Below are positions 11,805-42,875 of a stretch of 48,765 nt of DNA, piece after piece (positions within the stretch are counted from its first letter, which is position 1; every line of letters begins with the position of its first letter). Position numbers and translations under genes: made by a program. Source of the DNA: an uncultured Jannaschia sp. (lineage in GTDB: Bacteria; Pseudomonadota; Alphaproteobacteria; Rhodobacterales; Rhodobacteraceae); the NCBI RefSeq assembly GCF_947494055.1, contig NZ_CANLTR010000026.1, positions 1-48,765 of the forward strand, read 5' to 3'. The notes below the pieces were generated by a model. The model saw only the letters and a program-made list of their open reading frames with translations. It ran no database searches and was not told where the DNA came from.

Positions 11805-13990
11805 TCAGGCCAACAACGTCAGCCGGTCGGGCGAGGCCATGAACGTCCGCACCTCCGCGCGGGGACCAGCTGGCTGATCAGGTAGCCCTGGACTTGGTGG
11901 CATCCTTCCCGCTGGGCGAAAGCCCGCTGCGCCTCGGTCTCGACGCTCTCGATCGTCACGCGCATGCGCAAGTCGGCGGCAAATGCGGTGATTGCCCGAA
12001 CGATTGCCACGCTGCCTGCATCGTGGGGAAGCTGCCTGACGAAGGACTAGTCGATCTTGATCTTGTCGAACGGGAAGCGCCGCAGGTGGCTCAGCGACGA
12101 GTAGCCCGCGCCGAAATCGTCGAGCGCGATGCGGATGCCGAGCCGTCGCAGCTGGTGCAGGTTCTCGTAGGTGCGCGCGTCGTCGCCCAGAAGGGTGGTC
12201 TCCGTTACCTCGAGTTCGAGCCGTCCGGCGGGCAGCCCGGTGACGGCGAGGACCCGCGTCACCTTGCGCACGAGGTTCGGGTCGCCGAGTTGCACCGGCG
12301 AGAGGTTGACGGTGATCGAAGTCTGCTCTGGCCAGCGGGCCGCCTCTGCGCAGGCCATTTCCAGCACCTGTGCGCCGATGGCGCCCACGAGGCCGACCTC
12401 CTCGGCGAGCGGGATGAAGAGGCCGGGGGAGATCATGCCCTGCTCGGCATTGGTCCAGCGCGCGAGCGCCTCGGCGCCGACGACCGCGCCGCTTGTGGCA
12501 TCGATCATCGGCTGGTAGAAGACTTCCAACTCGCCCCGTTCGATTGCCTGACGCAGGTCGCGCTCCAGATCACTCCGACGTTGGGCGTCCTTGAGAAGAT
12601 GCGGCTCGAAGACGCAAGCCCGTCCGCCGCCGGCCCGCTTGGCGCTGTCGCAGGCGAGCGCGGCGTTCCGCGGCAGGGCTCCCGCATCGGAGGCAGCGTC
12701 TTCGAGACAGGCGATGCCAACGCTCGCGGATATCTCGAGCGTCTGGCCGGGCATCTCGAACGGCGCATGCAACGCCTCGAGGATGCGGCCGGCGAGGTCC
12801 GTCGCCTCCTCGCGTGACGCGATTGCCAGGATCACGAACTCGTTTCCGCCGATGCGGGCGACGATGTCCGTCCTGCCCCCGCAGCCGCGCAGCCGGTCCA
12901 CGACGGCGCGCAACACCTCGTCGCCGGTGGCTTCCCCGAACGTGTCGTTGACCCGTTTGAAGCGGTCGAGATCGATCGCGAGCAGCGCGAGGCTTGCGGC
13001 CCCGGTCACGCTCCGCGCGGCACGAGCCTGCGGGATGTCGGCAAACCGCGCCCGGTTGACGAGGCCGGTCAGGGCATCGGTGTAGGCGAGCCGCCGGATG
13101 GTCGTCTCGTTCCGCAGCTGCGCACGCTGGTCGCGGATGGCGAAGACAGCCCGGCGTCGGCGACCCACCGAGACTTCGCTGCGCAGCACGTGCACGGGAA
13201 TGGGCTTGCCGCCCAGGGCGACAAGGTCGGCCTCGTGCTCTTCTCCCTCGGGCGAATCGTGGAGGGCCGCACCTGGTACGAAGTCGGCGATCGGTCGGCC
13301 GACCACGTCGCCCTCCGACGCACCGACGAGCCGCGCGAAGCTCTGGTTGGCGACGAGGATCGTCGTGTCATCGCAGACTGCCAATCCTTCGACTGCCAGG
13401 TTCGAGACGTCGAGTATCCGAGCCCAATCGCGCCGCACCTGCGCCTGTGCCTGCAGGCTGAAGCGCATGCCGAGGAGCGCCAGGCCGATGAGGCCGAGGC
13501 AAATGGCGGTCACGACCGGCGCGCCTGCCTCCGGTGATACCGACGTTGCCGGGAGGCCGATCCGCGGATCGTAGACTGGCGTCATGGCGGCCATTCCGCC
13601 AGCACGGAGGACGGCGATCGCCGCGAAAAGGAACGGCGCGGCGAGTCGGCGGCGCACGGACCGACGCTCGCCCGCCGCGACGAGCGCCAGAGCGAACAAG
13701 GTGATGCCGAGGCCGGCGCTGCCGAACGCGAGGGACAGGTCCCACCGGAACGTTCCGGAAATCCGGTAGCCCGTCTGCCCGACGTAGTGCAGGAGTGCGA
13801 CGGAGAGGCCGAGCAGCACCCCCGCGAAGACCCGTCGCCGCCGGTCGCGCCGCCCGACGACGAGGTCCATGCTGAGGGCGATGACCGCGATGACCGCGAC
13901 GAGCGACTGGATCGTCGTGAGCACGTCGAAGGCCGCGGGCAGGCCCGGCCGGTAGGCTAGAAGCGCCACGATGTGGCCTCCATCTGATCG
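11805..13990 (-). pseudogene. MHYT-PAS-GGDEF-EAL protein, broken
   Basis: Remains of a membrane cyclic-di-GMP protein. In order it shows MHYT-like membrane segments (LLHYVGQTGYRI, GGMAAMT), a PAS domain, a GGDEF domain with the degenerate motif GGNEF, and an EAL domain with GAEALARW. Three lesions are visible. The 5' end is lost where family sequence begins abruptly near HIVALLAYRPG, next to an IS3-family remnant. An in-frame TAG (complement of 12047-12049) falls after DKIKID where the frame continues SFVRQL. A single-base deletion near 11845 shifts the last 17 codons, which in the other frame read EVRTFMASPDRLTLLA. GGNEF suggests the cyclase was already weak. Probably non-functional. Confidence 0.8.
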
Positions 13991-13999
13991 TCGTTCCGA

Positions 14000-14419
14000 A
14001 TGTGTTATGGGCCGTAATTCATCGCCAAAGCCGTTCGGGACTGGATCGCCGCGGTCGGAGCGAAGGCGGCATTCATCGAATCTGTCGGTCGGGCGATCGA
14101 TCCATCGGATCGATCTGTGATCCTCCCAACCCCTCGGGAGAACGGATACTGCGAAATCTTTAATTCGAAGCTCCGCAACGAACTTCTGAGCGGGGAGATA
14201 TTCTATCCCCTTGCCGAGACGCGCGTCGTGATCGAGGCATGATGGATCCATCACAGCACGGCGCGGCCTCACTCGACGCCGGGCTATCGGCCACCAACGC
14301 CAGCAGTTCTCTGGTCGTCTCACAGGCGGGGATCACCCCCGCTCCGGGTATCCACCTTGGAGCCGAGAGACCCGTCATGCACCAAGACTGAAACTGGACC
14401 ACCCAATAGTGACAGGCCA
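14000..14419 (+). mobile_element. IS3-family remnant (orfB 3' end and right terminal repeat)
   Basis: Degenerate C-terminal part of an IS3-family transposase OrfB: FIAKAVRDWIAAVGAKAAFIE, then ENGYCEIFNSKLRNELL with the last catalytic Glu, then RPHSTPGYRPP. In-frame TAA and TGA codons and a short insertion show decay. The segment ends in TGGACCACCC through GACAGGCCA (14395-14419), which resembles an IS3 right inverted repeat. The left part of the element is missing, replaced by the junction to the broken GGDEF-EAL gene. An imprecise deletion probably removed both 5' ends. Confidence 0.75.
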
Positions 14420-14480
14420 TTTGACTTCGGCAACATCTACGATTACCTTCACCATATTTGGTTATTTTGAAAGCAGATGA

Positions 14481-14762
14481 ATGCGAGACCGTCAAACGCG
14501 ATCTTCGCCGCCGCAAGCAGAGCCGCGGAGAGGCAATCCTCTCACACGCGAGTATGAAGCTCATGCGAAAGAAATTATACGAAAGGGTATGCGAGATAAG
14601 AGCGTGAGGGTTGCGGAACTTGCCGAACGTCTTCGTCAAATCGGAGTTAATATTAGCGACGGGGGCATGGCCAACAAGATAAGCCGAGGAGGCTTTTCTG
14701 CAGCATTCCTACTACAATGTATGGATGTGCTGGGCTATACTTTTAGCGAACAGAACAAATAA
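14481..14762 (+). CDS. DUF6471 domain protein
   Basis: 93 residues. From residue 24 on it matches the DUF6471 pattern: EAHAKEIIRKGMRDKSVRVAELA, then NKISRGGFSAAFLLQCMDVLG. The domain looks like a helix-turn-helix fold and is common on plasmids, phages and genomic islands, where a regulatory role is presumed but not shown. The first 23 residues are basic and not conserved in my memory of the family. It lies just beyond the IS3 remnant and opens an AT-rich stretch, so it was probably acquired. Confidence 0.7.
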   Translation: MRDRQTRSSPPQAEPRRGNPLTREYEAHAKEIIRKGMRDKSVRVAELAERLRQIGVNISDGGMANKISRGGFSAAFLLQCMDVLGYTFSEQNK

Positions 14763-14787
14763 TTAGCGAGCTTCTTAGAAAGTACAT

Positions 14788-15372
14788 CTATAGAATACCT
14801 ATGACTCCTATCACAATGCCAATCGCGCCAACAACATAACCACCGACGGCAGTCCATCGTTCTTTTTTCGCGTCGCGAATAAGGTGAGGCTCTTGTGCCT
14901 TAAATGCATTGTAAAGTTTAACAATTGCAGGCAAGTCTGTTCCTTGTATCGTAGAATAAATCGCATCTCTGTTGTTACGATCTTCTCGAGATACAGCAAT
15001 TTTAGACCTCACTTGAACCAGCTGCCCATACACATCCGACCAGTTCGGAAAGCAACTGAGAACTCTAGTAGCTCCCAGATTACTTACAGCAATTTCTAAA
15101 TCCATCACGATTTTCGAAGTTGCAGCATCTATGGCATCGTGCCTGGCTCGAAGGCAATCCATTTTAGCATCTCGAAGAAGGTCAAGCGACTTAGCAGGGT
15201 CTGGCAACCGAAGTTGCTTTGCTTCAACTAATTTTCGCCCTGCATAGCGAAGTTCATAGATTGCAGGGCTAACAACTTCTCGATTAACTTGTTCCGCCAG
15301 CTTGATAGCGGACTCGGCCTTATCCCATTCCTCGCCTACACTAAGGTAGGCGAGGTCAAAATCATCCTGCAT
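14788..15372 (-). CDS. hypothetical protein with C-terminal membrane anchor
   Basis: 194 residues, mostly helical, with a single hydrophobic segment at the extreme C-terminus (VGGYVVGAIGIVIGVIGIL), so probably tail-anchored. I recognise no domain. Base composition is clearly poorer in GC than the flanking genes, a sign of transfer. It begins six bases after the stop of the small gene at 15379-15588 and is probably cotranscribed with it. Confidence 0.6.
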   Translation of the reverse strand: MQDDFDLAYLSVGEEWDKAESAIKLAEQVNREVVSPAIYELRYAGRKLVEAKQLRLPDPAKSLDLLRDAKMDCLRARHDAIDAATSKIVMDLEIAVSNLGATRVLSCFPNWSDVYGQLVQVRSKIAVSREDRNNRDAIYSTIQGTDLPAIVKLYNAFKAQEPHLIRDAKKERWTAVGGYVVGAIGIVIGVIGIL

Positions 15373-15378
15373 GTATGC

Positions 15379-15588
15379 TTAGGCTTTCTCGACGGCTCTT
15401 TTCAAACGACCCATCGACTTATCCGCAGCACGAGACGTCTTACTAAGGTCTCGTCCCGACATGACGTCACCGCTCTGCGCTGCAACGCTTCCACGACACT
15501 GCTTGCTGATGATCTTCATCGTGGCCGCACGTTTGGCCTTTTTGTAGTCTCGCACGGTCAACCAGTCCAAGACGTTTTTCATGATCAT
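15379..15588 (-). CDS. small basic hypothetical protein
   Basis: 69 residues, highly basic (MIMKNVLDWLTVRDYKKAKRAATMKI and a Lys/Arg-rich C-terminus), possibly nucleic-acid binding. No family recognised. First gene of an apparent two-gene unit with the tail-anchored protein. AT-rich like its partner. An in-frame ATG two codons downstream is an alternative start. Confidence 0.5.
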   Translation of the reverse strand: MIMKNVLDWLTVRDYKKAKRAATMKIISKQCRGSVAAQSGDVMSGRDLSKTSRAADKSMGRLKRAVEKA

Positions 15589-15848
15589 ACCTTACTTACG
15601 CGCTATATAAATTTCGAACGAAAGGAAGTATGCCGCTTGCCGTCCTTGGTCAAGCCTCCCCAGTCTCCTTAGATGGTACGCCCACCTAGCGCTACCAGCA
15701 AACGATTAATCCAGTGTTAAGTTCCCAGTCTAGCGTCAACAGGAAGGTGATAATAACCATAAATGGTGACTTTTCGCCGTACTGCCGGAAACACATCGTG
15801 TATCGGTTCTGCGCCTGCTACTTGAGGCGTGGCATTCGTCATTCAGCC

Positions 15849-17147
15849 CTACGCAGCCTGCAATATCGGGCGCCCTTCTTGGACGTATGCCTTCGACTCG
15901 TCGGCCGGCGATCTGGTAGAGGCGTCCTCGATCAGCACGGCCATCTCCGGCGTGCTGATGCGACCCGGCTGGGTGACGTGGAACGCACCCTTCTGCGCCT
16001 GCGGCACCGCGCGGGCCGTCATCATCCGGACGATCGTGAATGCGGCCGTGGCGCAATGGGAGACGATCGTCGTGTAGAAGAGCGCCTGAGGACCCAGAGC
16101 GTTCATCAGCACGCCCGCCAGCAGGGGACCGAAGATCGAGCCCACGCCGAGGACCATGAGGATGCCGCCCGAGGTCTGGATGAAGGCGCCGGGCGCGGCG
16201 TGATCGTTGGCATGGGCCATAGCGACGGGATAGATCGCGAGCGACGTCGCACCGAAGAGGGCGACGACGATCAGGTTCGTCCATTGCCCGTGCGGCGCGA
16301 GGAAGATGAACGCCGCGTCGGCGGCCACCGCCATAAGGCACAGGCCCAAAAGCACGATTCGGCGGTCCATCCGGTCAGACAGGATGCCGACCGGGATCTG
16401 TGACAGCGCGCCCGCCATTACGGGCACGGCGGCGAAGAGGGCGACGACCGTCAGGCCCAATCCGACCTGCTCTGCGTAGACGACATGCAGGGTGAAGAAG
16501 GAAGAATTGGAGATGCCGAGCATGAAGGCGGCGAAGACGGCCACGGGAGAGTTCCGCCACAGACCAGCCAGATCGAGCCGGACCACGACAAGGGGCTGCG
16601 GCGCACCGGATGTCGTCAACGCGACCGGCACGAGCGAGAGGCAGTAGAACGCCCCGGCAAGAACGAAGAGTACGTGCCCCTCGATCGGCGCGAATGTCAG
16701 GGCCATTTGTCCGGTCGTCGTCGCGGCGAGGCCCACCATGGTGTAGATACCGAACACCTTGCCGCGCAGCCGCGCCTCGGTCCGCTCATTCAGCCAGCTT
16801 TCGACGATCATGGCCGCCCCCGCGAAGCAGAAGCCCGACAGCGCGCGCAGCACGACCCAAGCAGCGGGATGGATCAGGAGAAGCGACAGGAGCACCGCCA
16901 TGCCCGCCAGGGCGGACATGAGAGTGAAGGCGCGGATATGCCCGATGCCGGCGACAAGGCGCGGCGTCGCGAGACAGCCCGCGACGTACCCGATCGCCCA
17001 TCCCGTCCCGAGCAGGCCAAGGGCGATCGCGCCGAACCCTTCCAAGCCGCCCCGGACCGGCAGGATCATACCATTCAGGCCACCAGCGAAAAGGAGAATG
17101 GCGGACCCCAGAAGGAGGGCGCTTACGGACTGGAGGCTTTTGACCAT
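15849..17147 (-). CDS. MFS transporter (YcaD-like)
   Basis: 432 residues from the ATG at 17147; two further in-frame ATGs upstream would add up to 15 residues. Twelve transmembrane segments are visible. Features include GLLGTGWAIGYVAGC in the first half, the SGFCFAGAAMIVESWLNERTEARLRGKVFGIY segment typical of the YcaD branch, and SQIPVGILSDRMDRR between TM8 and TM9. The substrate is unknown. The gene appears intact despite lying among mobile-element debris, with normal high-GC codon use. Confidence 0.88.
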   Translation of the reverse strand: MVKSLQSVSALLLGSAILLFAGGLNGMILPVRGGLEGFGAIALGLLGTGWAIGYVAGCLATPRLVAGIGHIRAFTLMSALAGMAVLLSLLLIHPAAWVVLRALSGFCFAGAAMIVESWLNERTEARLRGKVFGIYTMVGLAATTTGQMALTFAPIEGHVLFVLAGAFYCLSLVPVALTTSGAPQPLVVVRLDLAGLWRNSPVAVFAAFMLGISNSSFFTLHVVYAEQVGLGLTVVALFAAVPVMAGALSQIPVGILSDRMDRRIVLLGLCLMAVAADAAFIFLAPHGQWTNLIVVALFGATSLAIYPVAMAHANDHAAPGAFIQTSGGILMVLGVGSIFGPLLAGVLMNALGPQALFYTTIVSHCATAAFTIVRMMTARAVPQAQKGAFHVTQPGRISTPEMAVLIEDASTRSPADESKAYVQEGRPILQAA

Positions 17148-17341
17148 TCTGATCTCTCGGCGCCGCATCGAGACCGCTCGATGCAGGACCATGGCGCGCC
17201 GCCATCTTGCGCATCAGTGGTGGAGATCCGGTTAACCACGAACGGCTGGCGAACCGTGCAGATCGTTCTGAATTACCGGTCATGCCGTGATCGTCGCATG
17301 ATTAGGCCTCCGAGCTGAGGATAGGGCATGCAGTCGATACC

Positions 17342-17517
17342 GGCCGATTGGGTTGAAAAACCCCCTCGACCCGCGTCTGCAGGTCCTGGACCAGAACTCT
17401 GTTCTACCGAAGGTCGAATTTACCCCATTTTCGGGGTATTTTCGTCGTCAACCAAAACGGGCGTTCTAATACTTCAGGCCGTTCTGAGCCTACCCGAGTT
17501 TTTCAACACAATCGGCC
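17342..17517. mobile_element. MITE-like element with IS1182-type ends
   Basis: A 176-base non-coding segment bounded by 20-base inverted repeats that differ at one position. The left end is at 17342-17361 (GGCCGATTG then GGTTGAAAAAC) and the right end is its complement at 17498-17517. The inner GTTGAAAAACTCG matches the right end of the IS1182-family copy at 24859-26383. The interior has no reading frame. It probably is a non-autonomous derivative mobilised by such a transposase. No clear target duplication is seen. Confidence 0.6.
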
Positions 17518-17651
17518 CATGGACGAAGCCGCTCCGCGGCATTGGTGCTTTTTGGCTTATGGCGTGAGCCGCCTGTAACGGTGGGCGTTTTGTGATGCGG
17601 CCGACCTGGCTGACGATTGGGACCTTCTCAATCATCAGACAGGAGGTTCCC

Positions 17652-18539
17652 ATGACGGAGGAGAGAGTGACACCGCTGCGCCAGCGGATGATCGAAGACA
17701 TGCGCATTCGCGGAATGGGGGATAAAGCGCAGAAGTCCCATATCCGGGCGATCAAGGATTTTGCGGCCTTTCTTGGTAGACCGCCTGACACGGCCACGCC
17801 GGAGGATCTGCGAGCCTACCAGCTCCACATGACGGACACCGGGGTCACGCCATCGACATTCAACACACGCATCGTGGCGCTGCGGTTCTTTTTCGGCATG
17901 ACCTGCGGGCGCGAAGAGATGAAGCGTTACATGCAGTTCCGCACCGAGCCGCGGAAGCTGCCCGTGGTGTTCAGCGTCGAGGAGGTGTCCGACATCCTGA
18001 TGGCGGCGCCGGGGCCCGGGCTGAAGTATCGCGCCGCGCTCAGCATTTCCTACGGTGCGGGGCTCCGGGCGGCCGAGGTCTGCAATCTCAAGATCGGCGA
18101 CATCGACAGCGACCGGATGCTGATCCACGTCGAGCAGGGCAAGGGCCAGAAGGACCGCAAGGTGATGCTGTCGCCCGGATTACTGGAGCTGTTGCGCGCC
18201 TGGTGGCGCGAGGCCCGGCCGGAGGGTTGGCTGTTCCCCGGCAAGCCGAAGATCAACCCGATCTCACCGCGCCAACTGAACCGCGCCTTCACCTCCGCCA
18301 AACACATGGCCGGGGTCAAGAAGCCCGCCACCTTGCACACGTTGCGCCACAGCTTCGCGACGCATCTGTTGGAGGCCAATACCGACGTGCGGGTGATCCA
18401 GGTGCTGTTCGGCCACGCCAAGCTGACGACCACCGCGCGATACACCCACGTGGCCACCAAGACGATCCGCGACACCGTCAGCCCCAACGAGATGCTGGCC
18501 AGGTTGCAGGATCAAACGGTGAAGCGAAGCCTGGAGTGA
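17652..18539 (+). CDS. IS91-associated tyrosine recombinase/integrase
   Basis: 295 residues. N-terminal SAM-like core-binding domain at 1-90, then the catalytic domain with Arg in GAGLRAAEVCNL, HTLRHSFATHL (His-x-x-Arg), His in VLFGHAKLTTT and the nucleophile Tyr in ARYTHV. All catalytic residues are present. A strong AGGAGG precedes the ATG at 17652. It is transcribed with the transposase 12 bases downstream. In IS91 relatives its role alongside the HUH transposase is not fully understood. Confidence 0.9.
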   Translation: MTEERVTPLRQRMIEDMRIRGMGDKAQKSHIRAIKDFAAFLGRPPDTATPEDLRAYQLHMTDTGVTPSTFNTRIVALRFFFGMTCGREEMKRYMQFRTEPRKLPVVFSVEEVSDILMAAPGPGLKYRAALSISYGAGLRAAEVCNLKIGDIDSDRMLIHVEQGKGQKDRKVMLSPGLLELLRAWWREARPEGWLFPGKPKINPISPRQLNRAFTSAKHMAGVKKPATLHTLRHSFATHLLEANTDVRVIQVLFGHAKLTTTARYTHVATKTIRDTVSPNEMLARLQDQTVKRSLE

Positions 18540-18551
18540 CCGGGCGCCGGG

Positions 18552-19750
18552 GTGTCCCGGCCGAAGCTGGAGATTGCTGACATCTTCCGCGCCCATGGCC
18601 CTGCGTGGCGGCAGGCCAATGTGGGGCATGTCAGCCTCTCACAGCTCAAGGTGATGTCCGCGATCGAGGCCTGCCGGACCGAAGCGCTCGGCGGGCATGT
18701 GGCCGGTTGCACCAAATGCGGCCACCATCACATCGCCTACAATTCCTGCAAGAACCGGCATTGCCCGAAGTGCTAGGGACCCGCGGCGCGCGACTGGATG
18801 GAGGCGCGGGCCGAGGACCTTCTGCCCGTGGAATATTTCCACGTGGTCTTTACCCTGCCAGCCGAGATTGCGCAGATCGCCTATTGGAACAAGAAGGCGG
18901 TCTACGGGCTGTTGTTCAAGGCATCGGCGGAGACGGTGATGACCCTTGCGGCCGATCCCAAGCGCATGGGCGCGCGAGTGGGCATGACCAGCGTGCTGCA
19001 CACCTGGGGCTCGGCGCTGACCCACCATCCGCATATCCACATGATCGCGCCCGGTGGCGGCCTGTCGCCCGACGGCACCAGGTGGGTTGCCTGCCGTCCC
19101 GGGTTCTTCCTGCATGTGCGGGTTCTGTCGCGGCTGTTCCGGCGCCTGTTTCTGGACGGGCTGATGGCCCTGCATGCCGCCGAGCAGCTCGCCTTCTACG
19201 GCGATCTCGAACGGCTGGCGCAGGCAGATGCCTTCGCAGCCTGGCTCGCCCCGTTCCGCAAGTCCGAATGGGTCGTCTATGCCAAGCCGCCCTTCGGCGG
19301 GCCAGAGGCAGTGCTGGCCTACCTGAGCCGCTATACCCACCGGGTGGCGATCTCGAACGCCCGCCTGATCAGCGCCGATGCCCAGACCGTCGCCTTCCGC
19401 TGGAAGGATTACCGCGTCAAATCCGGCGACCGACAAAAGGTCATGCGACTGGCCACGCCCGAGTTCATACGCAGGTTCCTGATCCATGTCCTGCCGGACA
19501 ACTTCCACCGCATCCGGCATTACGGTCTGCTGGCCAGCTCGGCCCGCAAGGCCAACATCACCAAGATCCGCGCCTTGCTGTGCGTGCAACGCCCGGAACA
19601 ACCCGCCACGCAGGGACCCGAAGCCGAGATCATCCCGCTCACCCTGCGCGAGCCATGCCCTGCTGCGGTGGCCCCATGCGCATCATCGAGATCTTCCGCC
19701 GTGGCCAGAAACCGATGTCGCGTGCCCCACCGAGGGAGCAGGCCACATGA
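18552..19750 (+). pseudogene. IS91-family transposase with in-frame TAG and frameshift
   Basis: HUH-type rolling-circle transposase. The N-terminal zinc finger (CTKCGHHH...CKNRHCPKC) is followed at once by TAG (18774-18776), then the same frame continues GPAARDWMEARAEDLLPVEYFHVVFTLP. Homologues have Gln after CPKC, so CAG to TAG explains the change. The HUH motif HHPHIHMI and the YLSRYTHRVAISN tyrosine are intact. Near 19650 a one-base loss shifts the frame: the last 30 or so residues (CCGGPMRIIEIFRRGQKP, ending EQAT) lie in another frame. The start is GTG at 18552. Confidence 0.85.
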
Positions 19751-20240
19751 CACCTCGCCCGTCATCCGTAACGGAACACCACCGGCTGCGATCCGCAGAC
19801 ACGGCCCAAATAGCTTGGGTCTTTCCGTCTTCGGCGCGACACACGGCGGCAATCACGCGACCATCAGCAGCTTTGTCGGGATCATCGAACGAGTTTGCGC
19901 CCGTCTCAGGCACCATGCGCACCTTCAACCGACCCCCTGATCCAGCCGTTGCCCCACCCCACTGCGCATTTTCCCCATAGATTGCCCCAAGACCCCCGCG
20001 GCTTCCTCCTTGGGAGGTTTTCCAACACGGGTCGTGGTTCCGACAATGCGCAACGTTTCGCCGCGACCCGCATCAGAAAACCTTCACCAAAGCAGATCTT
20101 GGTCCCGCTGCTGATCGCTGCGGCACAGCTTACCCGAAGCGGTCTTCCGGGGCATCGCGCAGCAACACGCATCGTCTCGAAGTCGGCTGTGCGGGACGAT
20201 GCTTCTTGGGGACCGTTGATTTTGACCGGACGTTGATGTC
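19751..20240. other. non-coding stretch beyond IS91 transposase
   Basis: No convincing gene. The first part is probably the right-hand end of the IS91-type element. The remainder, from about 20040, leads into the TnsA-like fragment. No clear repeat or terminator was found. Confidence 0.35.
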
Positions 20241-20241
20241 C

Positions 20242-20410
20242 GTCTAGGAGCAGCCCTGCCGCATCACCTACCGTGACCGCAATGGGCGTCGACGGAGCTA
20301 CATGCCCGACGCCCTCGTTTATCACAGACCGGGGACCGGGCTGCACGGCGTCGACAGCTTTCTCTACGAGTTCAAGCACCGCGCCGACCTCTTCGCTTGG
20401 CCGACGCTCA
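20242..20410 (+). pseudogene. TnsA-like endonuclease fragment
   Basis: A short stretch reads CRITYRDRNGRRRSYMPDALVYHR, then FLYEFKHRADLF. This resembles the catalytic core of TnsA, the heteromeric Tn7-type transposase endonuclease, with the Asp of PDAL and the Lys of EFK in the places of the restriction-like active site. There is no start codon or C-terminal domain. It overlaps, antisense, the atypical tail of the adenine methylase ORF, so a rearrangement joined the two. Confidence 0.4.
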
Positions 20411-21347
20411 ATGGAGTTGCACCTGGGCGATCGGCACCTGTGGAATCCGGCGTAAGGGACGGACGCGGCGTGCGGTACTGGGGGCGGAAGTGTTGGCGGG
20501 CGCGGAGATCCGCCGGAAGTCTCAGACCCTTGGATGCAATTAGGAGTTCGGTGCCGGTTCGCTTGGTCTGAGCGGAGTATAACTGGTCGAAGGCGAACTG
20601 TCGGCTCCAGCGATAGAGCCGGCTTATCTCGGGCGCGGCGTCATAGGTGACGATCCAGGGGCGTTCAATGGCGCTGATCACGCCCGCGAGCTGCTCATGG
20701 TCTTCGGGGGTATAAAAGCTCGTGTATAGTTCGGCACCGGCAGCATAATAGGGCGGATCGATGAACATGAACGAGCGATAGTCCGGGGTCTCCCGATGCT
20801 CTTGGAGGAAGTCGAGCGCGTCGGCCTGCGTGAAGGTTATCTGGCGGCGATACTTGGCGACGCGGCGGATACGGTCGGCGATCGTCTCCTTGTTGAACCG
20901 GCAGTCGATCCGGTATCGTCCGTCCTGTTTACGCCCGCCAATCATTCCGCCAGTTTTGATGATTCCGGACCGGTTCGTGCGGTTGAGGAATAGTGTCGCC
21001 AAGGCGAAGGACATCTCGTCGCCGCACTCCGGGCCGGACTGGTAGATCGCTCGCTGCCGGTCCCATTCCTCGACCGTCACAGGGACGGCCTCGACCGTGG
21101 CGATAAAGTCCTCGGTCCGATCGAGCATGCAGCGCCACAGGGCTGCGATTGCCGGGTCGACGTCGTTGAGGCGGATCGCGGAAACGTGCCCGTCGAAGAG
21201 TAGCGCCAAGGCCAGTCCGCCCCCGCCCGCATAGGGTTCGATATAGACGCCGCGGTCGACGCCATTGGCCTGCATGATGGTGCTGACCAGCCTCACCATC
21301 GACGTCTTGCCGCCCGGGTATCGAAGGGGTGAGGTTGATCGCGGCAT
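20364..21347 (-). CDS. DNA adenine methyltransferase (D12 class)
   Basis: 327 residues. N-terminal RYPGGK at 9-14, SAM-binding motif EPYAGGGGLAL at 37-47, and the catalytic DPPY at 197-200 define an N6-adenine methyltransferase of the Dam/D12 class. Family sequence ends near KGLRLP, about residue 275; the last 50 residues (Pro/Ser-rich, ending CLNS) look like read-through into the antisense of the TnsA-like fragment, so the 3' end may be rearranged. The recognition sequence cannot be told. It lies 66 bases after a ParB/Srx-like gene on the same strand and is probably cotranscribed, in the manner of modification-defence cassettes. Confidence 0.87.
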   Translation of the reverse strand: MPRSTSPLRYPGGKTSMVRLVSTIMQANGVDRGVYIEPYAGGGGLALALLFDGHVSAIRLNDVDPAIAALWRCMLDRTEDFIATVEAVPVTVEEWDRQRAIYQSGPECGDEMSFALATLFLNRTNRSGIIKTGGMIGGRKQDGRYRIDCRFNKETIADRIRRVAKYRRQITFTQADALDFLQEHRETPDYRSFMFIDPPYYAAGAELYTSFYTPEDHEQLAGVISAIERPWIVTYDAAPEISRLYRWSRQFAFDQLYSAQTKRTGTELLIASKGLRLPADLRARQHFRPQYRTPRPSLTPDSTGADRPGATPLSVGQAKRSARCLNS

Positions 21348-21413
21348 TGGATTCCTTCGCGTTTGCCTGTTAGCTATGGCTAGCCTAACAGGCTGGTTAC
21401 AACTCGGCCAGCC

Positions 21414-22874
21414 CTACTTGCCCTGGGCCTTGTGTAAGACCGCAACTTCAGCCACGGCGGCGAACACGCCGGAGAGCGTCGCCATGTCTTTGATGAGCGC
21501 GCCGCCGTGGACACCGCCAGTCTTGCTGTCATGTTTGCCCAGGTTGGCGCGAGCGCGTAGCCCACCGAGAATGCTGCTGATCGACCCAAGCGAGGCCGGT
21601 TCGTACCTCGCCTTCACCTCGGGCAGCCCCATGACACGGTCGACGATCTTTCCTTTGCCGTCCCAACCCGTCGCCTTCAGTAGGTGTTCAAGCAGGGTGC
21701 TACACCCGATGCAGACAAGAGCGGAATGCTGGTTCGCGCTGACTGTCGTAATCGATCCGTAGAGTTCGCTCATGCTGGGATTGTCGAGAGCCGCGATCGC
21801 GCGTTCTAGGGCCTCGTCCTTCGCGACAGTCCCACCTCTTGGCGCGTTGTTATCACCCTTCCCGCGACCGTTGTCCAGGTTTTCACTCCCCGCTCCCGAC
21901 CCGCCGGCGGCGTCCTCCCCTCCGGCCTCATCGCCGCCGGTTGCCTTCGGCACGTCTTCCTCGGCCTCGGTGCCGTCCTCTTCATCTCCAGACTGCGCGG
22001 CCTCGTCGCGCTCTGCTTTCGTCGGCATCAGCGTCCTGCTCTCGCCGTTCGGCAAGGGTGCCGGTGCCCCGAGCGCCCGCACGATCGTCGCGACATAGGC
22101 GTTGAGCCTGTCGGCGTTGTGCAACGCCCGACTGTTGTGCTTGGCAGGTTCGTCGAGCTGATCGCGCATCAGCTTCTCTAAGCCAATGCAAAAAACGTCC
22201 CATGGCAAGGTCCGGCGCAGTTCGCTGCCCGAACCTGTGAGGCCGATCTGCGTACGCCGCGCGGCGCTGGAAACGATCCGCGTTACGTTCGTCGGCGCGA
22301 TAATATCCGCTTCCGCGGGCGTGATGACCCCGGTCTTGCGCGCCGTCGCGATCAATTCGACTGCCTCGACGTTACTGGTCTCGCCGTTGCGTCGCGCCTG
22401 CTGAGTAGGGTTCCACCGTCTTCGGGCACCATCGGCTCCGCTGGCGACATGCATCCTGTCAATCCACGGGTCCGCCGACTCAAAGCTCGGGAAGATCACG
22501 ACTTTCACCGATCCGATCGGACCAAGCGCCTTGGCCGCACTGCGCAGACGGCGGATACGAGACGCCCGCTGCGTGACGTTTGCCGGCATGCGTTCCGGGT
22601 CGTCGAGAAGCAACAACGCGGCGACGCGACGATTGCCCTCCGCCGCGATATAGGTCGGGTCGTCCTTCGGGCTTCCCCGATCTCGGACCACGCCGATTAA
22701 ATCTAACGGGTTCACCCCGCCCATCTTGGCAATGTCGAGAGCGAGTTCGACGACCCGTTCGTTCTCGATCAGTTCCTTCATCGCCGCTGCAGCGTTGGCT
22801 TTCCGCTCGTGCCGAGGGTTGTCCAACTTGATCAGTAACCGGTCGAGTTCGATCTCAGCATCCTTCGTTTTCAT
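21414..22874 (-). CDS. ParB/Srx-like protein with possible HEPN C-terminus
   Basis: 486 residues. The N-terminal 100 residues fit a ParB/sulfiredoxin-like fold: KLDNPRHE near 17-23, then AKMGGVNPLDLIGVV, and AAEGNRRVAALLLL at 78-90 with the GNRR phosphate-binding motif. The middle (about 285-345) is an acidic, Gly-rich linker. The C-terminal 110 residues are helical and contain R442-ANLGK-H448, which fits the R-x(4-6)-H motif of HEPN RNases; this last point is tentative. The ATG overlaps the stop of the upstream frame (GATGA). It precedes the adenine methylase. Not a partition protein: no HTH and no parA nearby. Confidence 0.65.
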   Translation of the reverse strand: MKTKDAEIELDRLLIKLDNPRHERKANAAAAMKELIENERVVELALDIAKMGGVNPLDLIGVVRDRGSPKDDPTYIAAEGNRRVAALLLLDDPERMPANVTQRASRIRRLRSAAKALGPIGSVKVVIFPSFESADPWIDRMHVASGADGARRRWNPTQQARRNGETSNVEAVELIATARKTGVITPAEADIIAPTNVTRIVSSAARRTQIGLTGSGSELRRTLPWDVFCIGLEKLMRDQLDEPAKHNSRALHNADRLNAYVATIVRALGAPAPLPNGESRTLMPTKAERDEAAQSGDEEDGTEAEEDVPKATGGDEAGGEDAAGGSGAGSENLDNGRGKGDNNAPRGGTVAKDEALERAIAALDNPSMSELYGSITTVSANQHSALVCIGCSTLLEHLLKATGWDGKGKIVDRVMGLPEVKARYEPASLGSISSILGGLRARANLGKHDSKTGGVHGGALIKDMATLSGVFAAVAEVAVLHKAQGK

Positions 22875-23300
22875 CGCCTACGACCCCAACCTCGGCAAAA
22901 TTCGTATCGTGACGTCCGTCGATCGTCGCGACGCGCAATGCAGATTACCCGACAAGGACTGCCATGGCACCCCGTGGCTAGACCGATCGGTCCGCTGCTC
23001 CGTTTGCAGGAACCAATATTGCAATTCAAGATGCGGGCGTCGGTGCGAGGACTTTGTCCAGGTGCGTGTCCGGCCCAGCTCTCCTCGACATAGGCACTGC
23101 CCGAGGGCATCGGGAATTCCGCGTGGTCGGACGGTCGGAGATCTCCTCCAGGATTGAGTCCCAAAAAAGCGATCTCGGCTTCGTCGAGAACATGAACTGG
23201 GCTGTACAAGAAGCGCCAACCCAGTCGATTGCCGCTCGCGGTGTAAGCTCCTTCAATCCGACATGAAAGTTCAACATGATCAACCGGGGGCATCACGCCG
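22871..23300 (-). pseudogene. uracil-DNA-glycosylase-like protein, degenerate
   Basis: A frame whose N-terminal part resembles the uracil-DNA glycosylase superfamily: GWRFLYSPVHVLDEAEIAFLGLNPGGD, then SGSAYVEESWAGHAPGQSP. Homology fails after about residue 80 and the remaining 60 residues are Arg/Cys-rich and unlike the family, so a frameshift or rearrangement is likely. The frame nevertheless ends in a stop that overlaps the ATG of the ParB/Srx-like gene. The likely start is GTG or ATG near 23295. An IS5-like element inserted just upstream of it. Confidence 0.4.
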
Positions 23301-23347
23301 TAACGCTGTTTGCTTGAGGTCTGGGGCCGATAATAGGCCTTTATGTA

Positions 23348-24776
23348 GTCCGCTCTGAGCAACGTCTAGCGTTCTGATTTCACGCCACGAACCGACGTTC
23401 GCGCTGTGCTGGTTTCGCAGGGTTTGGTATTCTTGAGCCCGGAACCCTGCGATTTCGGAGGCCCGATGAAGCCCAAGCCTCGCGCGCCCGACCAAGACGA
23501 CCTGCTTCGCCCCCGGCTCACCGATCTGATCGACATGCGCCACGGGCTGGTGCGGCTCGAGGCGCTGATCGACTGGGATTTCTTCGAGGCCGAATGGGCG
23601 GGGTTCTTTCCGTCGCATACGGGCCGGCCCGCGACCTCGCCGCGGCTGGTGGCGGGGCTGCTCTACCTTTAGCACGCCTACGCGCTCTCCGACGAGGCAA
23701 TCGTCGCGCGATGGTCGGAGAACCCCTACTGGCAGCACTTCTGTGGCGAGGTGTTCTTTCAGCATCGCCCACCGATCGATCCGTCATCGCTGACCCGCTG
23801 GCGGGAGCGCATCGGCGAGGAGGGCGTCGAGTGGCTGCTCACGCAGACCATCGAGGCCGGTCGGCGTGCCGGCGTGATCGACACGCGCAGCACGCGCGAC
23901 GTGATCGTGGACACGACCGTGATGGAGAAGGCGATCGCGCACCCGACCGACACGCGGCTCTCCGAGCGCGCCCGCTTGCGCCTCGTGGGCTTGGCGCGCG
24001 AGGCGGGGATCGAGCTGCGCCAGAGCTATGCCCGCCTTGGCCCCCGCCTGGCCCGGCAGGTTGGCCGCTACGCCCATGCCCGGCAATTCGAGCGGATGAG
24101 GAAGGGGCTGCGCACCCTCAAGGGCTACACCGGCTGCGTGATGCGCGACGTCGCCCGCAGGCTGCACACCGTTACCGACGACGCCCTGCGTGCCCGGATC
24201 GAAGGACAGCTCGCCCTCGTCGCCCGCTTGCTGCGCCAGAAGCCCCGCGACAAGCGCAAGCTCTACGCGCTGCACGAGCCGGACGTGGACTGCATCTCGA
24301 AGGGCAAGGCGCACAAGCGCTACGAGTTCGGCTGCAAGGTCTCGGTCGCCACGACCCATCGCGAGGGCTTCGTCGTCGGCACGCGTCCGATCCCCGGCAA
24401 TCCTTGCGACGGCCACACGCTGCACGAGGCCGTCGAACAGGTCGAGATCCTCGCCGACGCCCGCCCCCGGCGCGTCTTCGTCGACCGCGGCTACCGCGGT
24501 CACGGCATCGAGCCCGCCACCGGCACCGAACCCACTATTGGTCATATGAAAACCGACGGCCGCCTGTCGCGCTCGCCCCTCAAGGGTACCATCGGCGATG
24601 CGCTCCACGCCGTGCTTTGCGGGGCAGGCCATAACATCCGCCTGATCCTCGCCCGCCTCCAGGCTCTTCTCGCCGAAATCCTCGTCACGCTGCTCCGCCT
24701 CATGGGCGACGCAACCCCGATTCTCACCCTGCCAAACCGTCAGATCGCGCACCCAGCGTGATGTTCAGGACGGACT
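23348..24776 (+). mobile_element. IS5-like insertion sequence with target duplication
   Basis: The ends are imperfect inverted repeats: left GTCCGCTCTGAGCAAC at 23348, right the complement of GTCCGTCCTGAACATC ending at 24776. The 6-base sequence TATGTA stands directly outside both ends (23342-23347 and 24777-24782), consistent with a target-site duplication. The transposase inside is interrupted and internally deleted, so this copy is probably inactive. Confidence 0.65.
23466..24761 (+). pseudogene. IS5-family transposase with in-frame TAG and internal deletion
   Basis: DDE transposase. The ATG at 23466 follows GGAGGCCCG. The first 68 codons end LVAGLLYL, then TAG (23670-23672), then the same frame continues HAYALSDEAIVARW; homologues read LYLQHAYALSD, so Gln CAG became TAG. 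The catalytic Asp residues (VIVDTTVMEKA, RRVFVDRGYRGHG) and Glu (EPTIGHMK) are present. About 25-30 residues normally found between RGYRGHG and the Glu motif are missing without loss of frame. The C-terminus from GRLSRSPLKGT on is intact. Confidence 0.82.
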
Positions 24777-24858
24777 ATGTAGCTACGTTGAATGGTTGCT
24801 TTCGCCTACGGTCCCCCTCTGCTCGCAAGCACAGCGAACGTCCGCTCTCCGCCGATTC

Positions 24859-26383
24859 TGTGGAAAAACACCCGTTCGCGAGCGCAGAATCTTGGCGCTC
24901 GTGATTGGCGCAGGCGCCTTTCTTCTCAGGCGTTTTGCGCTTGCTGCGGTGCGGGAAGAATCTTCGCCAGTTTCCGGAGGTTTTGGGCGGTAGCGGCGAG
25001 CAGGAATTCGTCCTTCGCGCCGCATGGTCCTCTTAGTCGGAGCCTTCCCAGGCCGAGGATGCGCTTGAGATGCGCGAAGAGCATCTCGACCTTCTTCCTC
25101 AGCTTCATCGAGACGCCGTATTGCTCGGTCTTGGCAATGTCGCGAGCGACTTGGCGGGCGTCATCGTGCTCCTCGCGGGTGATGGAGCGGAAGTCCATGT
25201 TCGGGCAGCAGCGCGGCTTCGAGGGGCAGGCCTGGCAGGTGAGCTTCAGGCCGCGGTATTTGGCGACGCCTGTGCCGGTTGGCCCCCGGTTCGGGTCGGA
25301 ATAGTTCCGGCGGAACTGCTTCAGTTCGTGGTCCTCGGGGCAGATGTACCGATCGTTCTCGGCATCCCACTCGAAGTCGGCGCGCGTCCAGGTGTCGTCG
25401 GTGCGGCCGGCTTTGTCTATGACCGGAATGTGCGGGGCGATCTTGCGCTCGACCAGCCAGCCCAGCATCGGACCCGACCCGTAGGCAGTATCTGCAATCA
25501 AGCGTTCGGGATGCAGGTCGAACTTCTCCTTTACGCGCTTCAACATGGTCTTGGTCGAGCCGACCTCGGCCTAGCGAATGGACCGCGTCGCTTCCACGTC
25601 CACGATGACCCCGTGGTCCGTGTCGATCAGGTAGTTGTCGGAATAGCTGAAGAACGCCGGACCCTTGCGCGCTGCCGTCCACTGGCTGGCCGGATCGGAA
25701 TGCGACGTGAACTTGGGCTGCACTTCGCTGGCGGCCCCGAAAGCAGCTTCGTCCAGTGTGTCCAGATACTCACGAACCGCGCGGGGTGCCTCGGCCGGAT
25801 CTATCCATGCCGCGTCCCATTCCTCCTTCGGCGTCGAGTTCTGCTTGTTCGCATCCGCTTCGATCAGACTGGCATCGACCGCCATGCGCTGCCCGCTGAC
25901 CAGGCCCTCCGCGATGCACCGTGCGACCGTCGTCTCGAACAGATGCCGCAACAGCTCGCTATCCCGGAACCGGCCATGACGGTTCTTGGAGAAGGTGGAG
26001 TGGTCCGGGACCCGGTCGCTTAGATCAAGGCGGCAGAACCAGCGATATGCCAGGTTCAGATGCACCTCTTCGCAAAGGCGACGCTCGGACCGGATACCGA
26101 AGCAATAGCCGACCAAGAGCATGCGGATCAGCAGCTCAGGGTCGACTGACGGGCGTCCTGTGTGGCTGTAGAAATCAGCGAGGTAGCCGCGGATACTGCT
26201 CAGATCCACGAAGCGGTCGATGGAGCGCAGGAGGTGATCCTGAGGGACGTGATCCTCCAGCGAGAACTCGTAGAACAGCGCCGGTTGCGCCTCCTGCCTC
26301 GGTCCCATCATCGCCGACCCTCCCGCCCATTAAAGGAATTGGATCAGCCAGACGCACCTCGATCAAGCTCGAGTTTTTCAACG
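24859..26383 (-). mobile_element. IS1182-family insertion sequence
   Basis: Bounded by short inverted ends: TGTGGAAAAACAC at 24859 and, in complement, CGTTGAAAAACTC ending at 26383. It contains a single transposase gene interrupted only by one TAG. The right end shares GTTGAAAAACTCG with the MITE-like element at 17342-17517. No target duplication was identified. Confidence 0.6.
24926..26311 (-). pseudogene. IS1182-family transposase with one in-frame TAG
   Basis: 461 codons, the usual family length. The N-terminal part runs FYEFSLEDHVPQDHLLRSIDRF to VIVDVEATRSIR, then TAG (complement of 25571-25573), then AEVGSTKTML and on to the C-terminal MLFAHLKRILGLGRLRLRGPCGAKDEF. Homologues have Gln between IR and AEVG, so CAG to TAG is the likely change. 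The catalytic Asp residues (MAVDASLIEADANK, IADTAYGS) and the Glu of KVEMLFAHLKR are present, and I see no other lesion. Read through with Gln, the protein would be complete. Confidence 0.85.
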
Positions 26384-26484
26384 AAATACGCGCTATCAAG
26401 ACATCTTAAGAACAGCTGTTCTCACCCTGGATCACCCGGCGGGCCGGCGAAGACCACCCCGATCCGTCCGACGCTCTTCTCGCC

Positions 26485-27303
26485 CTACCTTGCAAACCGC
26501 GCCCATCCGAGCTGCGGCCGGTTCGCCGCCCCGGCATCGATACAGATCGCCCGGTAGCCCTCGACGCCGTCCATCTGTTCTAGCTCCTCGGCCGTCTCGA
26601 TGAGCGACGTCCGGATCGCCGGCGTGTGCCCATGCACGACGATCGTCGGCCCCCGCCATCGTTGCCCTGTGGAAGGATCGACGTCCCACCCGCCCTGCCA
26701 CGTCAGGCGCTCGTGGCGGATCGCCGCCCAGTGCAGATCGGCCATCGGCCGGTCCCGGGCGAGATGGATGTCGTCGGGCACGGACGGATCGAGCCCGGCA
26801 TGGACGAAGAGCGGATCGCCGATGCGCAGATGCGACGGCGCAGCCCGGATGGCAGCGATATAGGCCTCGGGGATGGCCGCGCGGAGACGCTCTCGCGCTT
26901 GCGGCCAAGGTCTGCGATTCTACGCCGGATCGACCTCGCGCATCACGGCCTTGCCGCCGATCGCGAGCCACGGCTCCGCATTCCCGTCGAGCGCGTCGAG
27001 CAGTACCTGCTCATGGTTGCCGGGCAGGAGGACGACGCGATCGGCGCGGGCGAGCCGGGATGCGTTCATCATCAGCCCGATGGCCCGCAGGCTGTCCGGA
27101 CCGCGGTCGATGAGGTCGCCTAGGAAGACGACGAGACGTTCGGTCCCCAGGGCCCGTGGTGTTCTTGCAATCACCTCGAGACAGCCTGCAAGCAGATCGG
27201 CCTGCCCGTGGACGTCGCCGATCGCGAAGACCTCGAGATTGGCGAGTATGTCGCCCGGCAGGACGCGCGGCGGCAGCGAGACGTGACGCAGGTCGGGCCT
27301 CAT
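26485..27303 (-). pseudogene. PPP-type Ser/Thr phosphatase with one in-frame TAG
   Basis: Metallophosphoesterase of the bacterial PPP type, 272 codons including one internal TAG (complement of 26920-26922). Before it: GDVHGQ at 29-34, GDLIDRGPD at 62-70, GNHE at 95-98 and MREVDPA. After it the frame continues NRRPWPQARERLRAAIPEAY, then HLRIGDPLFVHAGL and VVHGHTP, which supply the remaining metal ligands. No other damage is visible. The ATG at 27303 follows AGGACCG; a start at 27348 would overlap the upstream stop. It is the last gene of a unit with the MbcA/ParS-like and AAA ATPase genes. The internal residue could have been Gln (CAG), but I cannot confirm this from the family. Confidence 0.75.
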
Positions 27304-27341
27304 CGGTCCTGGCCCTCGATGTGCATGGAAGTCGGCATCGG

Positions 27342-27770
27342 CTACCAAGGTTGCTGGATGGATCGCAGGTGTCGGTACACGAACATCATGCCCGCGCTCC
27401 CGTCATCGAGCATTCGGTCGACGGGACGGCGGCCGCCATAGTTCGGTCCGGTGTTCGGCCGCATGATCCATGTCGTGCCGAGGATCCCGGGGAACGCTGC
27501 GCGCTGCGCGGTGTACAGGGCGACCAGCAAGCCGGCCCGCTTCATCTGCGCGGCCTCGAACGGCGCGTCGTAGGTCCCGGCGGCGATGCGGTTCCAGTCG
27601 TCCGGCGCGACGTCGAGAAGCCCCGCGGCCTCGTCGGGTGCCAGCAACCAAGCCTCGGCGATCCGGCGCATCGCCGTTGCGACCACGCGGATGGCGTCAG
27701 GGTCGGTGGCGCGGTCGTCGGAATCGAGAATGCCCGACGGCTTGTCGGTGTCCGAAGGTGTCATCGTCAC
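27342..27770 (-). CDS. MbcA/ParS/Xre antitoxin-like protein
   Basis: About 142 residues from GTG at 27770 (or ATG at 27764). An N-terminal HTH-like region (AEAWLLAPDEAAGLLDVAPDDW) is followed by a helical dimer region and a C-terminal segment, MRPNTGPNYGGRRPVDRML, that matches the toxin-binding domain of MbcA/ParS antitoxins (DUF2384). The usual partner is a RES-domain NAD-degrading toxin, but none is present; the neighbours are an AAA ATPase three bases upstream and a phosphatase downstream. Either a solitary regulator or part of an undescribed module. Ends with TAG. Confidence 0.65.
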   Translation of the reverse strand: MTMTPSDTDKPSGILDSDDRATDPDAIRVVATAMRRIAEAWLLAPDEAAGLLDVAPDDWNRIAAGTYDAPFEAAQMKRAGLLVALYTAQRAAFPGILGTTWIMRPNTGPNYGGRRPVDRMLDDGSAGMMFVYRHLRSIQQPW

Positions 27771-27773
27771 CCC

Positions 27774-28859
27774 CTAGTGCAGCACGGGCAGGGCGAGTAC
27801 CGCCCGGGCCCGCGAGATGCAGCGCTGGACGGTCCGCAAGCTTGGCTGGGTGTGTGCCGGCAGGCGCTCGATCGTCTCAAGAATCGCCGTCGTGGCCTCG
27901 TCAGGTAGGTTGTGTAGAGCAGCCTGCCGGATGGCGAAGTCGCGCAGCTGCGGTCGCGTCGGTCCCGCCAGACGTAGAGGCGGACAGCGGCTGAGCAGCG
28001 GTGCGGACAACCCCGCGGTGGTGTTGGCGGTCAGCACCCAGCCGAGCCAGCTCATATCGAAGCTGACCCGGAAGTACGGGCAGGACCACCTCGCCGCCGT
28101 CGACCGCTCCAAAAGTGGCAGCAAGGCCTGCGCAAGATCGTGCACGGTGCCGGACTTCGACTGAACGCTCCCTGCCTTCTCGATCTCGTCGACGACGATC
28201 AGCGGATTGCCGACGCGATGCGCCAGGATCGTCTCGATCACGCGCCCCGGTCCGGCGGAGGCCCATCCGAGCTGAGAGCCTGCGATCGCGAACCCCGCCG
28301 GCTCGGTCGTGGCGTCGACGACGGTCGTTGGCATCCCGACCGCCGATCCGAGCGCCCGGGCCCAGTGGCTCTTTCCGATCCCCGGCGGCCCGACGAGCAG
28401 CAGCGGCGGCAGACGCAGGCCGGGGTTACCCTCGCGGACCGAGCGTCGCATCGCATGCCAGACGGTCTCGGTTGCCGGCGCCATCCACGGCATGTCGGCG
28501 TGCAGGGCGGCGGCGATCTCGTCGGCGCGGTGCTCGGTCGGGATCGTTACGAGATCGGCACCATCACGCAACACGGCAAGCCGGGCACGGGTCGCGGCGG
28601 ACAGGTGCGCGAGACCGGTGGCGGCCTCGGCGCGGTCGTGGAGGGCGCGGGCGCGGCGGTGGATACGGATCTTGTCGGACCGGGGCAGGCAGAGCTGCCA
28701 CACGGCGATGTCGTCGTCACCGTCCGACGGTGCCTCGGGACCGCCACCGCCCCGCCGACCTCGGAGCCGCGCCAAGTGCGCGAAGAGGCGGCGCTCGATG
28801 TCGGTGACCGAGGGCAAGTCGTCACGGTAGCGCGCGGCCATGATGGGGATGCGTGGCAT
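27774..28859 (-). CDS. AAA+ ATPase
   Basis: 361 residues. A helical N-terminal 150 residues precede an AAA+ core with Walker A GPPGIGKS at 157-164, Walker B LIVVDEIEK around D224-E225, sensor-1 region VLTANTT and an arginine-rich stretch near SRCPPLRLAGP. The core resembles the ATPase part of Lon-like proteins, without the protease domain. AAAGGACGATC precedes the ATG. First gene of a three-gene unit with the MbcA/ParS-like protein and the phosphatase. Its target is unknown. It ends with TAG as a normal stop. Confidence 0.8.
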   Translation of the reverse strand: MPRIPIMAARYRDDLPSVTDIERRLFAHLARLRGRRGGGGPEAPSDGDDDIAVWQLCLPRSDKIRIHRRARALHDRAEAATGLAHLSAATRARLAVLRDGADLVTIPTEHRADEIAAALHADMPWMAPATETVWHAMRRSVREGNPGLRLPPLLLVGPPGIGKSHWARALGSAVGMPTTVVDATTEPAGFAIAGSQLGWASAGPGRVIETILAHRVGNPLIVVDEIEKAGSVQSKSGTVHDLAQALLPLLERSTAARWSCPYFRVSFDMSWLGWVLTANTTAGLSAPLLSRCPPLRLAGPTRPQLRDFAIRQAALHNLPDEATTAILETIERLPAHTQPSLRTVQRCISRARAVLALPVLH

Positions 28860-38989: not shown

Positions 38990-40135
38990 CTACCGCCGCA
39001 TGAACCCCTCGTAGGCCGCGAGCAGCAACAGCGTCGCCACGAAGATCGCCGCACCGATCACCTCCAGCCCCAGCTCGTCGGCCAGCAGCCCCAGCACCGC
39101 CGTCACCACGGCACCGCCGAGGCCGGCCGCGGCGATCTGGTAGCCGATGGCGCTGTCGGCGTGATCGCGGCCGACGCGGCCCGGCGTCAGGCTGATGAGC
39201 GAGGCGAAGATCGGCGCGAGCGAGAACCCCATCAACATCAGCCCGGCCAGCGACGGCACGGGCGCGCCCAACCAGAAGAGGAGCGCGCCGCCCGCGCTTG
39301 CCACGATGCAGGCGCGCAACGTGCCCACCAGCGGCAGGCGGTCGGCGACGAAACCGAACAGCACGCGCCCGGCCATCAGGCTGCCCCAGTAGAGGGTCAC
39401 GAACAGCCCGGCCGTCGTCTCCTCGACGCCGCGCCCCAGCGTCAGGAGCGAATAGCTCCACGTCGCCGTGCCGAGCTCGACGCCGCTGTAGAGGAAGAAC
39501 AGCCCCATCCCGAGCCACACGACCGGCCGCCGCAGCGTCTCGACCGATCCGGCGGAGGCCAGCGGCGCCGTCTCCTCCACCTCGACCGGGCGCCAGCGGT
39601 CGCGCGTCACGAAGAACGTGATCGCCAGCCCGACCTGCGCGACCCCGACGATGGCGTAGCTCCAGCGCCAGATCAGGTCCGAGCTCAGGACGCCCGTCAC
39701 GATCAGCGGCCCGAGCGTCGTGCCGAGCCCGAAGAAGGCGTGCAGCCAGTTCAGGATGCGCGCCGAGAAATGCACCGCCCCGTAGGCGTTCAGCCCCGCG
39801 TCGATCGCCCCCCCGCCGAGACCCGCGAGGAACGCGGCCAACAGCAGGACCGGCCAGACCGGCGCCACGGCGATGACGAGGAGGGCCGTGGCGGCGGCGC
39901 CGGTCGAGAGCGTCAGCAGCATCCCCAGCGAGACGTGCCGCAGGACCGCGCCGCTCACGAAGCTCGACGTCAGGTAGCCCGCCGTCGCGAACCCGACGAG
40001 CAGGCCGAGCGCGTCGAGCGGCAGGCCGAAGCTCTGCCGCATCGACGGCCAGGACACGCCGAGCAGGCCGTCCGGCAGGCCGAGGCTGATGAAGGCCAGA
40101 AAGGCCAGCGAGGCGAGGATCGTGCTGCGGGACAT
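38990..40135 (-). CDS. MFS transporter
   Basis: 381 residues from the ATG at 40135, which gives [23 protein letters not shown]; the frame also opens upstream but into a repeat-bearing control region. Twelve transmembrane segments; [18 protein letters not shown] and [15 protein letters not shown] are typical of the FucP/FHS-like branch that moves sugars or small metabolites. The substrate is unknown. It follows the NYN gene on the same strand by 97 bases. Confidence 0.88.
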
Positions 40136-40183
40136 CGGGGGCCTGTCGAGAAAGGGAGGAGCGGCGCCGTCCCACGGCTGTGC

Positions 40184-40219
40184 CACAGCCGTAACACAGC
40201 CATCACACGGCCGTAACAC
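40184..40219. promoter_or_regulatory. direct repeats upstream of MFS gene, possible operator
   Basis: Two direct copies of CAC(A/G)GCCGTAACAC at 40184-40197 and 40206-40219, 22 bases from start to start, which is two helical turns. They lie 49-84 bases before the MFS start codon. A regulator site is plausible; the regulator is unknown. Confidence 0.4.
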
Positions 40220-40232
40220 GCGCCGGACGGCG

Positions 40233-42830: not shown

Positions 42831-42875
42831 GCGAGGTCTCCTGCGGGTGCGTCGCGGATCAATCCCCGCATGTGC

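Follow-up and report, generated by a model that had tools for sequence, protein, structure and literature searches.

PMC7918605 describes in-frame stop codons in bacterial genes as widespread, with the highest frequency in the mobilome class and, for the most part, a short life; it proposes in general that low read-through of such stops keeps the dose of the product down, and it reports a Paenibacillus gene with an alternation of TAG and CAG. For two crAss-like phages, PMC9523058 presents evidence of a code that reads TAG as Gln (genetic code 15), and a passage of PMC8629427 points out that in-frame stops of pseudogenes can be mistaken for reassignment. Ordinary pseudogenes with nonsense mutations, and insertion sequences in decay, are an already known kind.

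Here, we analysed a window of 48,765 bases (positions 1 to 48,765 of contig C26) from a draft genome of 4,746,325 bases in 276 contigs, in which five genes had been reported to carry an in-frame TAG. All five codons are present and in frame at the coordinates below, and on both sides of each the frame of the same gene is open. The families were assigned by Pfam for the EAL, IS1182, and phosphatase genes and by plasmid homologues for the IS91 and IS5-like transposases.

11819 to 13975, minus strand: remnant of an MHYT-PAS-GGDEF-EAL gene lacking its 5′ end, with TAG at 12047-12049 (Pfam, alignment with 7 homologues, in-frame stops)
About 14007 to 14420, plus strand: relic of an IS3-family transposase (rve_3 match at 14129-14296, blastn to IS3 transposases)
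17592 to 18539, plus strand: tyrosine recombinase accompanying an IS91-type element (Pfam, same gene order in plasmid records)
18552 to 19750, plus strand: IS91-family transposase, with TAG at 18774-18776 (plasmid homologues)
23463 to 24761, plus strand: IS5-like transposase, with TAG at 23670-23672 (plasmid homologues, copy on contig C29)
24926 to 26311, minus strand: IS1182-family transposase, with TAG at 25571-25573 (Pfam)
26422 to 27348, minus strand: pseudogene of a calcineurin-like (PPP-type) phosphatase, with TAG at 26920-26922 (Pfam, in-frame stops, two paralogues in the same genome)

Other genes of the contig were also recognised. Two adjacent genes at 20364-22874 (minus strand) match the two components of the PD-Lambda-5 anti-phage system in PADLOC (A, 1.9e-77; B, 4.6e-109), and the mobile-element cluster therefore also carries a likely defence pair. 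At 40089-48444 (plus strand), RimP, NusA, and IF-2 domains follow each other in a row, which marks the right end of the contig as chromosomal. Counted from its first start codon, the ORF that holds RimP has a length of 1160 aa, of which the RimP domains occupy only 983-1126, and the real start of this gene probably lies far downstream. The phosphatase pseudogene belongs to a cassette with an AAA ATPase and a small gene (26422-28859, minus strand), which occurs twice more in the genome, on contigs C10 and C33, with 82% and 91% identity, respectively, in the AAA ATPase.

Like ordinary pseudogenes and decaying insertion sequences, the genes of this locus have stops at codons that a single mutation turns into a stop, alongside one frameshift, one deletion, and one truncation, and they are genes free to decay; they differ in that the stops of the window are mostly TAG, a weak excess relative to the rest of the genome. 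The likeness to the code 15 phages (PMC9523058) lies in the occurrence of TAG at Gln positions, which holds for four genes. Here, however, no suppressor tRNA was found, each gene has one or two TAGs, and TAG ends ordinary genes; moreover, the TAGs lie in insertion sequences and accessory genes, and the contig, which also bears core genes of the chromosome, is not a phage. The mimicry of reassignment treated in PMC8629427 is close in another way, since single-nucleotide stops in pseudogenes can resemble reassignment to one amino acid, although the case described there is that of tryptophan in yeasts, on the basis of their genomes.

The codons found at the TAG sites in related genes were compared. 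The EAL site is occupied by Gln in all seven homologues aligned, from 80 loci returned (6 CAG, 1 CAA). Plasmid copies gave the same amino acid for IS91 (5/5 opened among 30 listed of 3666 records; 3 CAG, 2 CAA) and for IS1182 (7/7 opened among 30 listed of 2107 records; 3 CAG, 4 CAA, and TAG in none), and for the IS5-like element the codon was CAG in all four copies opened among 30 listed of 432 records. A copy of the latter on contig C29 of the same genome also has CAG at this position and no internal stop. The plasmid hits of the insertion sequences point to Rhodobacterales, but such elements are mobile and do not establish the host. The original prediction had placed Gln at the TAG sites of these four genes and explained each of the five TAGs by a change from CAG; the Gln positions stand, and the explanation fails for the phosphatase, where the two paralogues on C10 and C33 have TGG (Trp) and where the following codon differs too (AAT in the window, GAG in both paralogues). 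The phosphatase has a second in-frame TAG (26485-26487), and the corresponding codon of the two paralogues is GAG (Glu). The C10 paralogue is stop-free in the matched stretch and the C33 paralogue is itself frameshifted. The in-frame TAGs thus do not correspond to one amino acid, but to Gln at four sites and to Trp and Glu at the two sites of the phosphatase.

These results bear on the possibility that a Gln-charged amber suppressor tRNA renders the TAGs of accessory DNA silent or nearly so. The presence of Gln in every homologue checked at four of the five sites agrees with it, as does the fact that all five stops first listed are TAG, while the Trp and Glu positions in the phosphatase speak against it. 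We also considered a methylation hot spot (CCAGG) as a common cause and rejected it, as only the IS91 and IS1182 sites would have been CCAGG. The bases before the five TAGs (C, C, T, C, and G) and those after them (T, G, C, G, and A) differ, and because of this, and with CCAGG in two genes only, the TAGs have no common sequence context.

Further lesions were found in four of the five genes (EAL, IS91, IS5-like, and phosphatase), IS1182 being the only exception. The GGDEF motif of the EAL gene, kept in 7/7 homologues, reads GGNEF in the window, and the alignment of the fullest homologues starts at position 13975 (residue 117 of the read frame). From about 14007 in the upstream direction, the sequence is similar to transposase genes of IS3 (68% identity over query bases 108-520 in the best blastn hit); the relic occupies the place expected for the 5′ end, and the start of the EAL gene is therefore lost. 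A short match to EAL homologues upstream of 13975 (HDARL) lies inside the IS3-matching stretch and was taken as chance. The IS91 transposase has a 1-nt deletion near 19658 relative to the Dinoroseobacter copy, which puts its last ~30 codons out of frame, and the IS5-like transposase has a deletion of 25 codons near 24528 relative to the C29 copy. IS1182 and the phosphatase had been described as otherwise undamaged; no other lesion was found in IS1182 in the alignment with 7 homologues, while the description does not apply to the phosphatase, given its second in-frame TAG.

In the transposase frame of the IS3 relic, TAA is found at 14015 and TGA at 14240, so that the mobile debris of the window holds all three kinds of stop when the relic is counted. 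Outside the relic neither TGA nor TAA is found among the window stops counted, which are TAG in 6/6 cases. Just past the relic, a DUF6471 domain (1.9e-21) was recognised at 14553-14738 (plus strand), and the stretch containing it has an unusually low GC content (0.514 for 14001-16000).

The lesions also bear on the proposal that the TAGs are errors of sequencing or assembly, which might be raised for a draft in 276 contigs. Independent lesions of other kinds occur in the same genes, and the phosphatase TAG stands beside other differences from the paralogues, as expected of real decay; we give this proposal almost no credence.

If TAG were read as Gln, a tRNA with a CUA anticodon would be needed, and no recognisable tRNA of this kind was found in the draft assembly. 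A search with the tRNA family RF00005 returned 37 places, and the same 37 with E values up to 10; ARAGORN found no tRNA(CUA) among these 37 loci. The search missed at least one tRNA (tRNA-Tyr) and the higher E-value limit added nothing, and the argument is therefore carried by pattern searches of the whole assembly, in which a CUA anticodon loop followed by the T-loop consensus was sought in two runs with 1 and 5 hits. One tRNA-Arg(TCT) accounts for the hit of the first run and for one hit of the second, and no tRNA was predicted by ARAGORN at the other four; these searches cover the assembled contigs and tRNAs of the usual shape, unassembled repeats and tRNAs of unusual shape being outside their scope. 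As a control, the looser of the two patterns, with the respective anticodon, fitted 35/35 distinct tRNAs from the loci of the family search, and the Tyr version of the pattern gave 11 hits with tRNA-Tyr among them. When 1.62 Mb was scanned by ARAGORN, none of 11 predictions (some probably spurious) had a CUA anticodon, and no tRNA was predicted within the window.

Release factor 1 is present, with a prfA match on contig C2 above the curated cut-off; it was judged here on its presence, and its absence or alteration would be expected for full reassignment only. TAG is not avoided as a terminator either. A third of the genome was sampled, and of its 482 long ORFs 323 passed a coding filter; their terminators are TGA in 233 cases, TAG in 51, and TAA in 39. 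In the window, the ORF ends at 27342, 27774, 38362, 41310, and 41311 are TAG, as reported, these ORFs being taken as listed and as predicted genes. With no tRNA(CUA) found in the draft assembly, RF1 present, and TAG ending 51 of 323 long ORFs, Gln-inserting amber suppression was not borne out.

The types of stop elsewhere in the genome were determined for two transposase domain families, DDE_Tnp_1 (34 matches) and rve (21 matches), two of these matches being the window's own. Ten of the other 53 matches have internal stops, with TGA 5, TAG 4, and TAA 3 (two of the ten, on C4 and C53, do not reach the cut-off of their family). When the alignments of two relatives of IS1182 were widened, they added one TAG (C4) and one TGA (C97), giving TGA 6, TAG 5, and TAA 3. 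In-frame stops are thus not restricted to TAG, since TGA and TAA occur in other transposases and in the IS3 relic. TGA and TAA breaks elsewhere in the genome, together with the other damage in four of the five genes, also count against suppression, which we consider very improbable. A de novo scan of 1.62 Mb for in-frame stops flanked by coding-like sequence gave 112 candidates (TGA 71, TAG 24, TAA 17), and a tighter filter left 12 (TGA 5, TAG 4, TAA 3) and kept 2/5 known sites; the scan was set aside because many of the 12, inspected visually, look like the end of a gene followed by the next gene in frame and because three of the five sites were lost.

With the codon usage of the genome, the predicted share of TAG among single-step nonsense mutations is 55-59% under four mutation weightings (the codon table is a filtered version that replaced a first one, probably contaminated by antisense ORFs). 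Among single paths, the change of CAG to TAG leads with 23-31% whenever transitions are favoured (three weightings), and under equal weighting GAG to TAG comes first (17%) and CAG to TAG second (9%). The chance that five of five stops are TAG is about 0.05, and about 0.03 for six of six. Had all five TAGs come from CAG, P would be ≤ 0.003, which does not apply because one of them has another source; at least four of six TAGs from CAG has P of about 0.05 under one modelled spectrum. Compared to the rest of the genome (4/12 TAG), the window has 6/6 with the IS3 relic left out (one-sided P = 0.011) and 6/8 with the relic included (one-sided P = 0.085), and for transposases alone the comparison is 3/5 against 4/12 (P = 0.31). 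Adding the two stops of the IS1182 relatives changes 0.011 to 0.012 and 0.085 to 0.091. These P values overstate the excess of TAG, because they take at face value the choice of pattern made in the original prediction. Once the IS3 relic is counted, the window shows a weak TAG excess relative to the remaining genome.

The IS1182 transposase deserves separate consideration. Its 461 codons align without gaps to the seven homologues, with private codon changes that are synonymous in 10 cases and non-synonymous in 2, and 7 of 360 residues invariant among the homologues are changed, the TAG site being one of the 7. The first 367 codons of the IS91 transposase are similarly conserved: 4 private changes are synonymous against 1 that is not, and 6 of the 262 invariant positions are altered. 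Because the private changes are mostly synonymous and few invariant residues are altered, both genes, the only two to which this test was applied, were under selection until recently. The IS1182 stop is thus of recent origin, and its read-through is conceivable. No terminal repeats were found when inverted repeats were sought around the element.

Such preservation, with TAG as the sole lesion found, could reflect a natural low read-through that keeps the transposase at a low dose, and PMC7918605 agrees with this in reporting the mobilome as the most frequent class and dN/dS below 1 around the stops. According to the same paper, in-frame stops are transient, and many of those in the mobilome class belong to pseudogenes. 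The preservation of IS1182 fits a recent mutation equally well, all seven homologues have Gln and none TAG, and relatives elsewhere in the genome reach at most 69% identity and include no second copy with this TAG. We therefore regard low read-through of this UAG as very improbable, and the fuller proposal that it throttles transposition, with the neighbouring TAGs as incidental decay, is equally improbable.

Together, these results indicate that the five TAGs very probably arose by ordinary nonsense mutation, in accessory genes that are in decay. They would have arisen independently in non-essential genes of a stretch rich in insertion sequences, namely three transposases, a phosphatase with two relatives in the genome, and a GGDEF-EAL gene that had already lost its 5′ part. 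C-to-T changes of CAG would account for four TAGs; decay by such transitions, one of the explanations first offered, is supported to this extent, but the phosphatase stop would be a G-to-A change of TGG and the sixth TAG (26485) a change from GAG. The direction of these changes is inferred from the homologues, and probably none of the five genes yields a full-length product. The predominance of TAG is explained by codon usage, since in this GC-rich genome the frequent codons that a single change can turn into a stop (CAG, GAG, TGG, TCG, and AAG) mostly give TAG.

The original prediction had named three observations that would speak against suppression: no suppressor tRNA anywhere, intact CAG copies of the same elements in the genome, and stops of all three kinds, at similar rates, in other pseudogenes. 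As far as the draft assembly allows, all three were made. The third is seen in the two transposase domain families, and the second holds for the IS5-like element through its C29 copy; it does not extend to IS1182, whose relatives here do not exceed 69% identity, or to IS91, for which this draft genome has no other copy.

Had suppression been true, accessory DNA would be under a private code in a genome where TAG is otherwise a stop, which would be notable. The comparisons used here (stop types across the genome, codons in paralogues, additional lesions, and a tRNA search with controls) can be reused for similar claims. Clusters of ordinary nonsense mutations in a GC-rich genome can mimic a hidden change of code, because the susceptible codons mostly become TAG and many of them encode Gln.
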